From Thermococcus sp. (GTDB taxonomy: Archaea; Methanobacteriota_B; Thermococci; Thermococcales; Thermococcaceae): a stretch of DNA of 12,473 nt. A program made the translations under genes and the position numbers. The notes under the pieces were generated by a model, which did no database searches, was not told the origin of the DNA, and saw nothing but the letters and a program-made list of their open reading frames with translations. The stretch covers positions 1-12,473 of the forward strand of contig JALTMZ010000167.1 of assembly GCA_027001105.1 (NCBI GenBank). Direction: 5' to 3'. Below are positions 3,661 through 9,285 of this stretch, one piece after another (positions within the stretch are counted from its first letter, which is position 1; every line of letters begins with the position of its first letter).

Positions 3661-4635
3661 ATGGAGAAAGTGTTGGAAGTTAAACATCTCAAAAAGTACT
3701 TCCCCGTGAAAGGCTTATTTTTCACAAAGGGCTGGGTTAAGGCAGTTGATGACATAAGCTTTGAGATATACAAGGGTGAAACCTTTGGCTTAGTAGGCGA
3801 GAGTGGCTGTGGTAAGACAACGACAGGAAGAACAATCCTTCGTTTGATAGAGCCAACTGCTGGTGAAATCCTCTTTGAAGGCAAGAATGTTATGGAGCTT
3901 AAAGGTGATGAGCTCAAATGGTTCAGGAGGAAAGCCCAAATAATGTTTCAGGATCCGTACTCATCCCTGAATCCAAGGCAGACAGTATTTGAAATAATCA
4001 TGGAGCCTGTGAGATTTCATGGCATTGAAGTCGATGATCCTGAAGAATTTGTAGTAAACCTCCTGAAAAGCGTTGGACTCAACGAGATGCACCTCTACAG
4101 GTATCCCCACGAGTTCAGCGGTGGTCAGAGGCAGAGAATTGCCTTAGCGAGAATAATGGCTCTTAAGCCAGAGTTCATAGTACTTGATGAGCCAACGTCT
4201 GCTTTGGATGTTTCAGTCCAGGCGAACATCCTGAACACTCTCAAGGACTTGCAGGAAAAGCATGGGTTCACTTATCTCTTCATCTCCCACGATTTGGGTG
4301 TCGTCAAGTACATGAGCCACAGGATGGGGGTCATGTACCTTGGAAAGCTTGTCGAGGTAGGTCCAGCTGATAAAATCTTTGAGAATCCGCTTCATCCTTA
4401 CACTCAAATGCTCCTCTCAGCTATTCCAGTTCCAGATCCCGAGATGGCTAAAGAGCTTAAAGCAAAACGCAAGATTGTTAGGGGTGAACCTCCAAGCCCA
4501 ATAAACCCACCGGCTGGATGCAGGTTCCACCCAAGATGTCCGTTTGCAAAAGATGTGTGCAGAAAAGAAGAACCCCCAATGGTTGAGGTAGAAAAGGACC
4601 ACCATGTTGCCTGCTGGCTTTATGCTAAATCATAG
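3661..4635 (+). CDS. Opp/Dpp-type ABC importer ATPase, DppF/OppF subunit
   Basis: Second ATPase of the importer, 324 residues. It starts at ATG 3661, nine bases after the previous stop, with GAGGTGA at 3650-3656 overlapping that stop codon. Seen: Walker A GESGCGKT (46-53), Q-loop Q97, signature FSGGQRQ (152-158), Walker B FIVLDEP (172-178), D-loop ALD and switch histidine H210. The N-terminal KKYFPVKG and the C-terminal extension with LHPYTQMLLSAIPVPDP mark the F rather than the D subunit. Like its partner it carries four cysteines at C287, C293, C300 and C318 with exactly the same spacing, CX5C-X6-C-X17-C. The last 11 bases overlap, tail to tail, the 3' end of the unrecognised gene on the minus strand. 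It is the last gene of the operon. Confidence 0.95.
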   Translation: MEKVLEVKHLKKYFPVKGLFFTKGWVKAVDDISFEIYKGETFGLVGESGCGKTTTGRTILRLIEPTAGEILFEGKNVMELKGDELKWFRRKAQIMFQDPYSSLNPRQTVFEIIMEPVRFHGIEVDDPEEFVVNLLKSVGLNEMHLYRYPHEFSGGQRQRIALARIMALKPEFIVLDEPTSALDVSVQANILNTLKDLQEKHGFTYLFISHDLGVVKYMSHRMGVMYLGKLVEVGPADKIFENPLHPYTQMLLSAIPVPDPEMAKELKAKRKIVRGEPPSPINPPAGCRFHPRCPFAKDVCRKEEPPMVEVEKDHHVACWLYAKS

Positions 4636-5194
4636 AAAGCAGAGCATCCCTAAAACCTTCATCAATCTCTAAGAGCTGTGTATATATGCCATCTTTTTCT
4701 CCTTTTTCGTTGAAAATTTCTCTATTTTTGAGTTCAATCCGGTAGTAGATGTATTCTTTTGGAATTATCTTGATCTTATCAAGTTCTGTGGGGGTTTTAA
4801 CTCCAAGGATTTTTCTTAATATAGCCAGAGATAACATGGCCTCTCTATTTTCTTTTGCAAGCTGTTCGTCTTTCTCTACATGCCTTGAAAAACCAGTTGG
4901 AATTCCAATGAGCCTGAGGATATTCCATTTTCTCATATGCCTTAGTCGTTTGTTCAGCTTCTCTCCAGAGCTTTCATAAACCTCAACAAACAGGTTTTTT
5001 AAGAACTCCTCAATTTTATTCTTCTGTAAGAGTATTGGGAGAGGCTTTTCTGCAGTTTTTGATAGAGTTCTATCTATTGGTCGAATTAGAGTGCTGACTC
5101 TCTCAATCCGCTCAAGCTTCTTTGAAAAGTGAGCATCAATCATATATTCCTTTCCATTCACTTCAAATACCAGATAGGGTACTTCAACTTTCAT
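4625..5194 (-). CDS. unrecognised protein, divergent from hel308
   Basis: I do not recognise this 189-residue protein. It begins MKVEVPYLVFEVNGKEYMIDAHF, a short beta-rich stretch that could form an OB- or SH3-like strand pair. It continues with charged, predicted helical segments (residues 52-76, and about 105-132 with many K, E and R), a basic patch KLNKRLRHMRKW near 79-90, and a mixed strand/helix end. No membrane segment, signal peptide, cysteine cluster or catalytic motif is visible, so a cytoplasmic protein is likely. The ATG at 5194 lies about 23 bases from the TATA element it shares with hel308 and has no clear ribosome-binding site, which suggests a leaderless mRNA. Its 3' end overlaps the importer operon by 11 bases. 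Sharing a promoter with Hel308 hints at a link to DNA repair, but that is inference only. Confidence 0.75.
   Translation of the reverse strand: MKVEVPYLVFEVNGKEYMIDAHFSKKLERIERVSTLIRPIDRTLSKTAEKPLPILLQKNKIEEFLKNLFVEVYESSGEKLNKRLRHMRKWNILRLIGIPTGFSRHVEKDEQLAKENREAMLSLAILRKILGVKTPTELDKIKIIPKEYIYYRIELKNREIFNEKGEKDGIYTQLLEIDEGFRDALLSMI
4692..4708 (+). terminator. T-tract terminator candidate for the importer operon, inside the opposing gene
   Basis: About 60 bases after the last ATPase stop codon the plus strand carries two runs of five T separated by CTCC. The archaeal termination signal is usually such a T-tract without a required hairpin. Because the convergent genes overlap, it lies inside the 3' part of the minus-strand gene, where it encodes the NEKGEKDG stretch. 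No termination data can be read from sequence, so this is a candidate. Confidence 0.4.
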
Positions 5195-5246: not shown

Positions 5247-7469
5247 ATGCAGGTTGATGAGCTTTCAAAATTTGGTGTGGATGAGAGGATAATCAGGAAG
5301 GTTAAAGAGCGCGGCATTAGCGAGTTTTATCCTCCTCAAGCTGAGGCTCTGAAAAGCGGTGTTCTCAATGGAGAGAATTTGCTTTTGGCAATTCCAACAG
5401 CGAGCGGGAAAACACTTGTTGCTGAAATTGTGATGCTCCACAAGCTCTTTACTGAAGGAGGAAAGGCAGTTTATTTAGTCCCTCTTAAGGCTCTGGCTGA
5501 AGAAAAATACAGAGAATTCAAAACATGGGAGGACTTGGGGGTTAGAGTTGCTGTAACGACTGGAGATTATGACAGCAGTGAAGAATGGCTTGGAAGGTAT
5601 GACATAATCATAGCAACGTCAGAGAAGTTTGACTCCCTCCTGAGGCATAAATCGAGATGGATTAAAGATGTAAAGCTCATCGTTGCGGATGAAATTCACC
5701 TCCTCGGCTCTTATGATAGAGGTGCAACTTTAGAGATGATATTATCGCATATGCTCGGCAAAGCCCAGATTTTGGGATTGAGTGCAACCGTTGGAAATGC
5801 TGAGGAGCTGGCTGAATGGCTGAACGCAAAGCTTGTGGTCAGTGATTGGCGTCCAGTAAAGCTAAGGAAAGGCGTCTTTGCTCACGGTCAGCTAATTTGG
5901 GAAGATGGCAAAGTTGATAAGTTTCCAGCTCAGTGGGATTCTCTTGTAATTGATGCTGTCAAACGGGGCAAACAAGCTCTGGTTTTTGTGAATACGAGAA
6001 GATCAGCGGAAAAAGAAGCGGCAATGCTTGGCAAGAAAGTTAGACGGCTTTTAACAAAGCCCGAAGCAAGGAGATTAAAAGAGCTGGCTGAGTCATTGGA
6101 GAGCAATCCAACCAATGATAAACTTAAGGAGGTTTTAGTTAACGGTGCTGCTTTTCATCATGCTGGATTAGGAAGAGCAGAGAGAACTTTGATTGAAGAT
6201 GCATTTAGGGAAGGGCTGATAAAAGTCTTAACTGCGACGCCGACATTAGCTATGGGTGTAAATCTTCCCTCCTTTAGAATTATAATCCGCGATACAAAGA
6301 GGTACTCAACTTTTGGCTGGTCTGATATCCCTGTTCTTGAAATCCAGCAGATGATGGGGAGGGCTGGAAGGCCAAAATACGACAAAGAAGGCGAGGCTAT
6401 TATAGTTGCAAAAACGGAAAAGCCGGAGGAACTCATGGAGAAATACATATTTGGAAAGCCCGAAAAGCTGTTCTCAATGCTCTCCAACGACGCTGCATTT
6501 AGAAGCCAAGTTTTAGCCTTGATTACAAACTTTGGAGTCGAGAGCTTCCGCGAATTAATAGGATTTTTGGAGAAGACCTTCTATTATTATCAGAGAAAAG
6601 ACTTAGAGATTCTCGAAAGCAAAGCGAAGAGCATAGTTTACTTCCTCCTTGAGAACGAGTTCATAGATATTGGCCTAAACGACCGCTTTATAGCGTTGCC
6701 CTTTGGGATAAGGACTTCCCAGCTCTATCTTGATCCTCTCACAGCTAAAAAATTCAAAGATGCTCTGCCTCAAGTAGAGGAAAATCCAAATCCTCTCGGC
6801 ATCTTTCAGCTTTTGGCATCAACTCCAGATATGGGAACGCTCAGCATAAAAAGAAAGGAACGGGAAAGTTCTTTCGATTTTGGTTATGAGATGGAGGACT
6901 ATCTGTACCGTTCAATTCCTTACTGGGAGGACTACGAGTTTCAGAAGTTTTTGAGTGAAATCAAGACGGCAAAACTGCTCTTGGATTGGATTAATGAAGT
7001 AAGTGAAGCAAAGCTGATTGAGGTTTATGGAATTGATACTGGGGACTTGTATAGGATTATTGAGCTTGCAGACTGGTTGATGTACTCTCTAATTGAGCTT
7101 GCGAAGGTTCTCAATGCAAGGGGTGAGACGATTAAATACCTTAGAAGGCTTCACCTGAGGCTTAAGCATGGCGTTAGAGAAGAGCTGTTGGAACTGGTGG
7201 AGCTTCCAATGATTGGAAGGAAGAGGGCAAGAGCCTTGTACAATGCGGGCTTTAAAACTGTTGGTGACATTGTAAAGGCTAAGCCGAGTGAGCTTTTAGC
7301 CGTTGAAGGTATTGGTGTTAAAGTTCTGGAGAGAATCTACAGGCATTTTGGGGTTGAGCTTCCATTGTTGAAAAATATCAAAGATTCTGACAAGCCAGAG
7401 GAGAAGCCTAAGGAAAAACCCAAACCAAAGAAAGGAACTTTGGATTACTATTTTGGGAAAGGTTTATAA
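5247..7469 (+). CDS. hel308: Hel308/Hjm superfamily 2 DNA helicase
   Basis: ATP-dependent 3'-5' DNA helicase that acts on forked and Holliday-like DNA at stalled replication forks. 740 residues from ATG 5247; P. furiosus Hjm, from memory, is about 720 with start MRVDELRVDERI, matching MQVDELSKFGVDERI here. The frame extends upstream to an ATG at 5193, but that would translate through the promoter. Seen: Q-motif YPPQ (28-31), Walker A PTASGKT (50-56), Walker B DEIH (148-151), motif III SAT (179-181), motif V ATPTLAMGVNLP (330-341), motif VI QQMMGRAGRP (367-376), the ratchet-helix region, and a helix-hairpin-helix module (653-702, LPMIGRKRARALYNAG and VEGIGVKVLERI). The end is a Lys/Pro/Glu-rich linker and KGTLDYYF (729-736), which resembles a PCNA-interacting (PIP) box; P. 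furiosus Hjm is known to bind PCNA. No intein. The final codons overlap the TATA box of the next gene. Confidence 0.97.
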   Translation: MQVDELSKFGVDERIIRKVKERGISEFYPPQAEALKSGVLNGENLLLAIPTASGKTLVAEIVMLHKLFTEGGKAVYLVPLKALAEEKYREFKTWEDLGVRVAVTTGDYDSSEEWLGRYDIIIATSEKFDSLLRHKSRWIKDVKLIVADEIHLLGSYDRGATLEMILSHMLGKAQILGLSATVGNAEELAEWLNAKLVVSDWRPVKLRKGVFAHGQLIWEDGKVDKFPAQWDSLVIDAVKRGKQALVFVNTRRSAEKEAAMLGKKVRRLLTKPEARRLKELAESLESNPTNDKLKEVLVNGAAFHHAGLGRAERTLIEDAFREGLIKVLTATPTLAMGVNLPSFRIIIRDTKRYSTFGWSDIPVLEIQQMMGRAGRPKYDKEGEAIIVAKTEKPEELMEKYIFGKPEKLFSMLSNDAAFRSQVLALITNFGVESFRELIGFLEKTFYYYQRKDLEILESKAKSIVYFLLENEFIDIGLNDRFIALPFGIRTSQLYLDPLTAKKFKDALPQVEENPNPLGIFQLLASTPDMGTLSIKRKERESSFDFGYEMEDYLYRSIPYWEDYEFQKFLSEIKTAKLLLDWINEVSEAKLIEVYGIDTGDLYRIIELADWLMYSLIELAKVLNARGETIKYLRRLHLRLKHGVREELLELVELPMIGRKRARALYNAGFKTVGDIVKAKPSELLAVEGIGVKVLERIYRHFGVELPLLKNIKDSDKPEEKPKEKPKPKKGTLDYYFGKGL
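7458..7469 (+). promoter_or_regulatory. BRE/TATA promoter of the AAA ATPase gene, inside the end of hel308
   Basis: AAAGG followed by TTTATAA is a near-perfect Thermococcales BRE/TATA element. It covers the last codons and stop codon of hel308. A transcription start about 24 bases downstream would fall near 7488-7495, inside the second of two dyad repeats and just ahead of the ATPase start codon. This indicates that the ATPase has its own promoter and is not only read through from hel308. Confidence 0.6.
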
Positions 7470-7506
7470 CTACCGGGGTGGTAGCATACTACCGGGGTGG
7501 TAGCTT
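7469..7506 (+). repeat. two tandem 19-bp dyad repeats, likely operator of the AAA ATPase gene
   Basis: The 17-base unit ACTACCGGGGTGGTAGC occurs twice (7469-7485 and 7488-7504) with a 19-base period and no mismatch; the following two bases are AT and TT. Each unit contains the inverted arms CTACC and GGTAG around GGGGT. The pair fills the space between the TATA box and the TTG start, covering the expected transcription start, so a bound protein would block transcription. The GGGGTGGT of the second copy is also the only ribosome-binding site for the ATPase. The five-base-pair stem is too weak to act as an RNA switch at very high growth temperature, so a DNA operator is the more likely reading. 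The binding protein is unknown; autoregulation by the ATPase's own winged helix is possible. Confidence 0.6.
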
Positions 7507-8594
7507 TGTACTTTGACGAGAGGCCAAAGGAAAGGCGAGAAGATTTGTATGATAGGGAAAAGGAGCTTAACGAACTTTTAGATTTAGTCTCACAGAGAAA
7601 GCCGCTTACAGTTATAAAGGGCATAAGAAGGCTTGGGAAGACATCTCTCCTAAGGGTCGCTTTGAATGAAAGCGAGTTTCCATTTATAATAGTTGATTTG
7701 AGAGAGGTAAATCCAAACTCAAGAAAAGAACTTTACGAAAGAATTCAGCATGCTCTAAACAGATATTTCCAAGAAAACAAGGGGCTGTTTGAGAAGATAA
7801 AGGACAAGCTCAAGCTCATTGATGGAGTTGAGCTTTTTGGTATGAAAATCTCACTTTCATGGAAAACTCCAGACACCCTTTATTCGCTGTTTTCACTCTT
7901 GGACGATGAAGGCTTTGTTGTTGCCTTTGATGAGGTGCAGGAAATTAGAGGACCAGCCGGCAAAGAGCTCTCTCAGCTGATAGCTCACTTCTATGATTAC
8001 GGAAGCCTATGCTTTATTTTAAGCGGAAGTGAAATCGGCTTTCTTTATGACTTCATAGGTGCAGAAAATCCAAATGCTCCATTATATGGCAGGGTGTTCT
8101 ATGAAATTGAACTCACACGGTTCAGCAGGGAGCAGAGTTTGGACTTTCTGAAGAAGGGATTTGAGCAGCTTGACCTTTATCCCGACGAGCACATCCTTGA
8201 GCTTGCCGTAGACAAGCTTGACGGGATTGTTGGCTGGCTGGTTAAATTCGGTCTACTAAGCTGGAGGAAAGGAATAAGCAAAGAGATTGTAAATGAAGTA
8301 CTTGAAGAAGCAAGCAAGCTTGCATTTTCCGAATTTAAGCGCTTCTTGGAGAAAAGGCCCCTCGCCAAGAGGAGATACATTGTGGTTATGAAAAGCATAG
8401 CCTCTGGAAAAAACACGTGGAGTGAAATAAAGGAGGAGCTTGAAAAAGCTGAGAAAAAGCACATTACGGATTCAACACTCGCAAGGCTGTTGAATGCTCT
8501 GCTTGATTCGTCGTTCATTGAAAAGGTTGTGGAAGGGAGGAACGTTTATTACAAAATTGCTGACCCAGTTTTGGAATACGCATTTGTTAAATAG
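7506..8594 (+). CDS. archaeal AAA/STAND-type ATPase (ATPase_2 family) with C-terminal winged helix
   Basis: Member of the archaeal ATPase_2 family (COG1672-like), which is strongly expanded in Thermococcales; no member here has an assigned biochemical role that I know of. Seen: the family's start pattern YFDERPKERREDLYDREKEL, Walker A GIRRLGKTS (39-47, K45), Walker B VVAFDEVQ (138-145), a sensor-like ILSGSEIGFL (171-180), an arm-like helical region, then a winged helix-turn-helix (about 290-350, TWSEIKEELEKAEK and TLARLLNALLDSSFIEKV), ending in IADPVLEYAF, also a family hallmark. I chose TTG 7506 (362 residues) because relatives start just before the RPK.REDL motif and GGGGTGGT lies four bases ahead; GTG 7497 would add three residues. 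It is convergent with the VapC gene, four bases apart. A regulatory or stress/defence function is plausible but not shown. Confidence 0.88.
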   Translation: MYFDERPKERREDLYDREKELNELLDLVSQRKPLTVIKGIRRLGKTSLLRVALNESEFPFIIVDLREVNPNSRKELYERIQHALNRYFQENKGLFEKIKDKLKLIDGVELFGMKISLSWKTPDTLYSLFSLLDDEGFVVAFDEVQEIRGPAGKELSQLIAHFYDYGSLCFILSGSEIGFLYDFIGAENPNAPLYGRVFYEIELTRFSREQSLDFLKKGFEQLDLYPDEHILELAVDKLDGIVGWLVKFGLLSWRKGISKEIVNEVLEEASKLAFSEFKRFLEKRPLAKRRYIVVMKSIASGKNTWSEIKEELEKAEKKHITDSTLARLLNALLDSSFIEKVVEGRNVYYKIADPVLEYAFVK

Positions 8595-8598
8595 CAAT

Positions 8599-9254
<656 letters not shown>

Positions 9255-9255
9255 C

Positions 9256-9270
9256 TAATATACTATATTA
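9256..9270 (-). promoter_or_regulatory. vapBC promoter and probable operator palindrome
   Basis: TAATATA and TATATTA form a perfect 7-1-7 inverted repeat about 30 bases before the vapB start codon. Read on the minus strand it contains the AT-rich element expected for the vapB TATA box, placing transcription start near 9240 with a leader of about 13 bases that holds GGTGA. AbrB-type antitoxins bind palindromes that overlap their own promoter, so this is the best candidate for the autoregulatory site. TAGTAG also occurs twice nearby (9227-9232 and 9244-9249); its meaning is unclear. Confidence 0.5.
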
Positions 9271-9285
9271 ATCTAACGGATAATC

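Follow-up and report, generated by a model that had tools for sequence, protein, structure and literature searches.

Tandem dyads on the promoters of archaeal winged-helix ATPase genes as putative private operators

The promoter of a winged-helix ATPase gene of Thermococcus sp. carries two exact copies of a short dyad, placed between the TATA box and the start codon, and many homologous genes carry the same arrangement with other half-sites. We consider it quite probable that each of these ATPases represses its own gene through its own private tandem operator, and this is the reading that the sequence comparisons support best. We infer the binding protein from the covariation between half-sites and winged-helix residues described below, and repression from the position of the dyads on the promoter.

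The features found in the window, that is, the whole stretch of 12,473 nucleotides that was analysed, are listed in Table 1. The TAA that ends the TATA box doubles as the stop codon of hel308, the gene lying upstream, and the last A of the box is also the first base of dyad 1. The sequence ACTACCGGGGTGGTAGC, in which the arms CTACC/GGTAG are inverted around GGGGT, is repeated exactly with a period of 19 bp. The original observation of tandem dyads that follow the TATA box and reach the ATPase start was confirmed in the sequence with minor corrections, among them that the dyad is 17 bp long and that 19 bp is the repeat period. Dyad 2 ends 1 nt upstream of the TTG start, and the alternative GTG, which is in frame, lies inside this dyad. 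It had also been proposed that dyad 2 supplies the ribosome-binding site, which agrees with the presence in it of GGTGGT, a match to the consensus GGDGRD reported for T. kodakarensis (PMC4247193). According to the same source, the median spacing between the TATA box and the transcription start in T. kodakarensis is 23 bp, so that transcription of the ATPase gene would be expected to start inside dyad 2.

Table 1. Features of the ATPase gene and its promoter (positions in the window).
Feature	Position	Strand	Basis or remark
BRE-like element GAAAGG	7457..7462	+	Lies where the family has its consensus GAAACC (7-12 nt ahead of dyad 1; alignment of 106 promoters)
TATA box TTTATAA	7463..7469	+	In 92 of 106 genes a TATA-like sequence stands at most 14 nt ahead of dyad 1
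Putative operator dyad 1, ACTACCGGGGTGGTAGC, half-sites ACTACC and GCTACC	7469..7485	.	Sequence and tandem score
Putative operator dyad 2, identical to dyad 1 and 19 bp further downstream	7488..7504	.	Sequence and tandem score
Predicted transcription start, within the left arm of dyad 2	~7490-7493		From the 23-bp median reported for T. kodakarensis
Putative ribosome-binding site GGTGGT, in dyad 2	7496..7501	+	Fits the reported GGDGRD
Likely TTG start (MYFDERPK...); alternative GTG at 7497	7506..7508	+	Placement of the dyad 2 end across the family
ATPase gene (ATPase_2, PF01637, C-terminal winged helix), proposed autorepressor	7497..8594	+	
Winged-helix domain, residues 290-351	8364..8549	+	PF21100 (MCM_C) match
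K305 codon	8409..8411	+	Best predictor among the columns for half-site base 4
Probable recognition helix ITDSTLARLL, residues 323-332	8463..8492	+	Assigned from sequence pattern; D325, its third residue, goes with half-site base 2 and T327 with base 5

Homologues of the ATPase are present in 33 of 61 related genomes, and in many of their upstream regions tandem dyads stand straight after the TATA box, with arms differing from those in the window. A first, laxer tandem score separated these regions poorly from shuffles and was set aside; we used instead the agreement of four 6-base half-sites (maximum 24), with a threshold of at least 21 that was chosen after viewing the shuffles. With this score, 67 of the 103 homologues of a first set passed, compared with 5 of 1030 dinucleotide shuffles, and none of the 103 control regions, which covered positions −110 to −49 of each gene, reached 21. 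All 67 passing genes have a period of 19, although 18-20 was allowed. A second archaeal class contains homologues in 15 of 61 genomes (E ≤ 0.001) and in 21 of 400 (E ≤ 1e-15), the two samples being overlapping draws, and many of these homologues have the same tandem architecture. After both classes were merged (E ≤ 1e-15, a minimum of 75 nt upstream and of 290 aa, one gene per distinct protein), 106 of 167 homologues scored at least 21 with the period fixed at 19. The expectation that similar repeats precede the paralogues was therefore borne out for most of them, with half-sites that differ.

The remaining 61 homologues fall below the threshold, and 31 of them have an inverted repeat scoring at least 8, compared with 10 of 610 shuffles. 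When the PF01637 loci of two genomes (G000 and G003) were scored, 5 of 30 reached 21, four of them of the window ATPase type and the fifth one of the 20 loci with large frames (at least 440 aa). Two known members of the window ATPase type stayed below 21 in these genomes, L331 with 20 and L334 with 15; the latter score reflects a wrong start, and under its other label, L097, this gene reaches 24. Within the window itself, a score of at least 21 is reached only at 7469-7504. Elsewhere, in a set of 56 loci (172,472 bases) of which half had been chosen for carrying the CTACC motif, three places reach it, one of them the promoter of a decayed ATPase. Other arrangements were also observed. One homologue (L195) carries the dyad in three tandem copies, with ACTGGT half-sites, before its start, and in a more distant subgroup (L040, L156-L162, L164 and L165) a single palindrome of ~30 bp near the start, for example GATACCCCCCGAAC...GTTCGGGGGGTATC, replaces the two dyads.

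When the 106 promoters were aligned on dyad 1, the elements appeared in the order GAAACC, TTWTA and first A of the half-site, and in 104 of them the end of dyad 2 fell within −2 to +3 nt of the residue 4 codon. On the coding strand, the centre of dyad 2 is GGG in 88 of these genes and CCC in none, while the centre of dyad 1 is GGG in 45, CCC in 37 and palindromic in 21 of 106 genes (overlapping classes). Similarly, GGDGRD was found within dyad 2 in 58 of 106 genes and within dyad 1 in 20. Dyad 2 appears to be under an orientation constraint that is absent from dyad 1, most simply that of ribosome binding; its centre would double as the ribosome-binding site, and this would fix its orientation. 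The absence of the same constraint from dyad 1 suggests that dyad 1 acts as DNA.

The half-sites follow the pattern A-(C/G)-T-NNN, with a version of its own in each paralogue group. Among the 106 of 167 genes scoring at least 21, from which the following rule was derived after it had first been spotted by eye, C is present at half-site base 2 in all 73 genes with D or E at residue 325 of the protein, and G in all 28 genes with N, K or Q. In the five genes with P or S at this residue, for which the rule gives no clear prediction, base 2 is C in four and A in one. Column 325 was the sole zero-error separator of C and G among 331 protein columns (105 genes), and the next column made two errors. 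Base 4 was best predicted by column 305, with 5 errors in 106 genes (next best, 13), and base 5 by column 327, weakly separated with 18 errors from the next column with 19; the columns that best predict base 6 fall outside the winged helix. N327 and G at base 5 were found exclusively together (16 of 16).

Since the genes are related, the raw counts overstate their independence. Changes were counted on a tree built from residues 4-280 only, leaving out the winged helix; it is a quick tree in which the placement of long branches is unsure. For base 2 and residue 325 it gave 6 base, 6 residue and 6 joint changes (101 genes with D, E, N, K or Q), each switch between C and G thus falling together with a switch of the residue. 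The corresponding numbers for base 5 and residue 327 were 9, 13 and 16, and because the joint count exceeds both single counts, this base and residue 327 do not always switch together. Well-supported branches provided three independent pairs, none of which contradicts the rule, and some pairings leave one of them not differing; a sign test on the independent pairs gave p 0.25 at best, the pairs being too few for significance. Among 23 genes fetched later, which include close relatives of the earlier ones, the rule holds for each of the 20 that have D, E or N at residue 325. These results show two features proper to an autoregulatory operator, namely that dyad 1 begins, by sequence, on the gene's own TATA box and that half-site base 2 tracks the specificity residue 325 of the adjacent gene's product.

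We propose that the ATPase occupies the four half-sites through its C-terminal winged helix, probably in the form of two dimers placed 19 bp apart. Since the TATA box is overlapped by dyad 1 and the transcription start would be covered by dyad 2, the bound ATPase would repress its own gene. D325, at the beginning of the recognition helix, would specify the C at base 2 of the half-site; residue 305 may contribute to the recognition of base 4, and residue 327 to that of base 5. The paralogues would have changed their specificity residues and their operators together, and as a consequence several self-regulated ATPases could coexist in one cell with operators that are mostly different. We further infer the dimeric state, repression in preference to activation, and a control of binding by the nucleotide state of the ATPase.

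The operator had been suggested to be autoregulatory and, at the same time, to define one shared regulon with the paralogues. The covariation between helix and operator strongly favours the former proposal, and the latter was abandoned, since the half-sites of the paralogues differ by subfamily. The genome scan for CTACC-N5-GGTAG that had been recommended points in the same direction. In the genome of origin (1.5 Mb, 80% complete), the exact motif is present only at the two dyads; with one mismatch it was found in 11 places, including the two dyads, compared with 30 for the reversed control. Exact sites were detected in 31 of 61 genomes, with a total of 43 compared with 164 for the reversed control, and pairs with the 19-bp period in only two genomes (G000 and G012), in both cases preceding the orthologue of the window ATPase. 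Two outside sites were inspected, one located in a coding region (G032) and the other before a decayed ATPase (G016). A regulon defined by the literal motif was rejected, given that its sites are scattered and rarer than those of the reversed control.

Each of three related operator patterns was sought in 61 genomes, with a full tally for GTATCG-N4-CGATAC only. The sites of this pattern were matched by eye to the ATPase hits; among the 30 genomes that have one, the site neighbours an ATPase in 24 and a decayed ATPase in 2, and has no ATPase next to it in 4. Among the operator-pattern sites inspected, which were a subset, none clearly controlled an unrelated gene. The operators of paralogues in the same genome tend to differ: consensus bases 2-6 are the same in 4 of 95 pairs, compared with 10.6 on average upon random reassignment, which gave a number as low as 4 in 28 of 2000 draws. 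The four sharing pairs are all between the same two subfamilies, in which the seventh base mostly differs. At least one single half-site is common to 9 of the 95 pairs, indicating that the separation of the operators is incomplete.

Other explanations of the dyads were weighed against these data. The position of an operator does not by itself identify the protein that binds it, and a different, unlinked regulator could occupy the dyads; we regard this as quite improbable, given that the half-sites track the winged-helix residues encoded by the adjacent gene in genomes with one to six tandem operators in the set analysed. The repeats could also act at the RNA level, by folding the mRNA leader into a hairpin that masks the ribosome-binding site, which is located inside dyad 2, a sequence that could fold and that was listed as a terminator-like stem. 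Such a hairpin seems highly improbable: with the 23-bp spacing reported for T. kodakarensis, dyad 1 should precede the transcription start, yet it keeps the same arms; the predicted folding barely exceeds that of shuffled sequences (z −0.95 for both dyads and −0.35 for the leader as predicted); and the arms covary with residues of a winged helix. Rfam returned no match at the gathering score, and on this result and the folding z values a structured RNA leader was rejected, both as a known family and as an unusually stable fold. Many of the genes are closely related, and in principle chance or the shared ancestry of functionless promoter DNA might account for the likeness of their promoters; we give this next to no credence, for the half-site 6-mer changed 25 times on the tree and yet the dyad symmetry and the 19-bp period persist.

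The dyads might instead be chiefly the ends of a gene unit that moves or recombines, with a secondary role as an operator. In agreement with this, a dyad with the same arms is present near the stop codon in 13 of the 66 genes with enough sequence (one of them, L242, weak), compared with 0 of 66 for reversed half-sites; orphan pairs occur at some loci where relatives have the gene; and the segment with the ATPase and VapBC is missing between hel308 and the next gene in four relatives. However, the window gene lacks a downstream dyad, as do the other 52 of the 66 genes, no recombinase match was found among the five window proteins searched in Pfam, the ATPase included, and the placement of the dyads on the TATA box, the expected start and the ribosome-binding site suits an operator. 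This explanation is, in our judgement, very improbable, and autorepression through private operators remains the preferred one. A mobile carrier was rejected: the upstream DNA gave no match to plasmids, and the ATPase protein gave none to phages and one weak hit, in Haloferax, to plasmids.

The loci concerned differ in their organization. In the window, hel308 and a kinase-like gene are separated by a segment of ~1.8 kb (7470-9280) that holds the ATPase together with a convergent VapBC-like pair; this segment is present at this site in G003 and absent in G002, G004, G005 and G006. The convergent pair (8599-9227, minus strand) encodes PIN-domain and AbrB/MazE-like proteins and is probably a VapBC toxin-antitoxin pair. 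On the other side of hel308, a divergent ORF of 189 aa (4625-5194, minus strand) had no Pfam or NCBIfam match. The genes with a dyad near the stop codon belong to two subfamilies in 11 of 13 cases, and the gene is bracketed by operator-like dyads, with the same arms near the stop codon, at L172-L175 and L177-L184. Orphan operator pairs were observed at L190, L191, L298, L299, L302, L305 and L306, several of them after a TATA-like sequence, and tblastn detected no ATPase in the 3 kb surrounding these pairs. They are unexplained by plain autoregulation. In G015 (L190) and G019 (L191), a single pair stands beside a gene read as valS from its translation, and its second dyad has the GGTACC of the downstream pair at the occupied locus of G068 (L183), as expected from recombination between two dyad pairs. 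G010 (L188) appears to retain the promoter, the dyads and only a short C-terminal end of the gene, and L057 has, at 1470-1790 and directly after an apparent tRNA gene, a decayed ATPase with its operator pair retained.

A broader and more speculative proposal, which we hold to be unlikely, is that these ATPases are archaeal selfish or dispensable gene units for which the private operator would serve as an identity tag, silencing each copy of the unit and limiting cross-repression, with some units bracketed for excision. If so, limited cross-repression would let several units coexist in a genome. In some subfamilies the dyad pairs on either side of the gene would recombine, removing the gene and leaving a promoter-operator scar without it.

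The product of the window gene belongs to the ATPase_2 family (PF01637; 71.2 bits, cut-off 33.2) and is an archaeal AAA+ ATPase of the SSO1545 type, its residues 4-362 and 5-359 aligning with PDB entries 2fna and 2qen (E 3.7e-59 and 5.6e-51, respectively). The likeness to these proteins is full-length and includes the winged-helix segment. Related ATPases are known as STAND NTPases. The searches of NCBIfam and PHROGs gave no match for the ATPase, and the PADLOC matches, the best being PDC-S27 (E 1.3e-13), were to candidate models without a described function; identity with a defence family was rejected on these results.

The literature searched, whose coverage excluded most subscription papers, contained no description of private self-operators for these ATPases. 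The analysis provides a testable prediction for a numerous and little-characterised archaeal family, namely that the direct DNA target of each ATPase is its own promoter. One winged-helix residue would state one base of this target and two more would partly state others, and the family could yield heat-stable repressor-promoter pairs with mostly different specificities.

Among known systems, Stf76 of pSSVx is a winged-helix factor reported to recognise two sites in its own promoter (PMC4027180). The window ATPase would resemble it as an archaeal autorepressor acting on its own promoter, and differs in size, Stf76 being described as a far shorter protein of 76 aa. We know of no series of paralogues with private operators for Stf76. 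The ATPase domain of IniR, a regulator that controls iniBAC, has been predicted to be similar to SSO1545 (PMC5760070); for the family of the window ATPase, in contrast, only self-control has been seen, and this from sequence. As described in that source, IniR also has an additional MalT-like domain and a different DNA-binding domain. The window ATPase nevertheless shares with MalT and IniR, both signal-transduction ATPases that regulate transcription, the joining of a P-loop ATPase to a DNA-binding domain.
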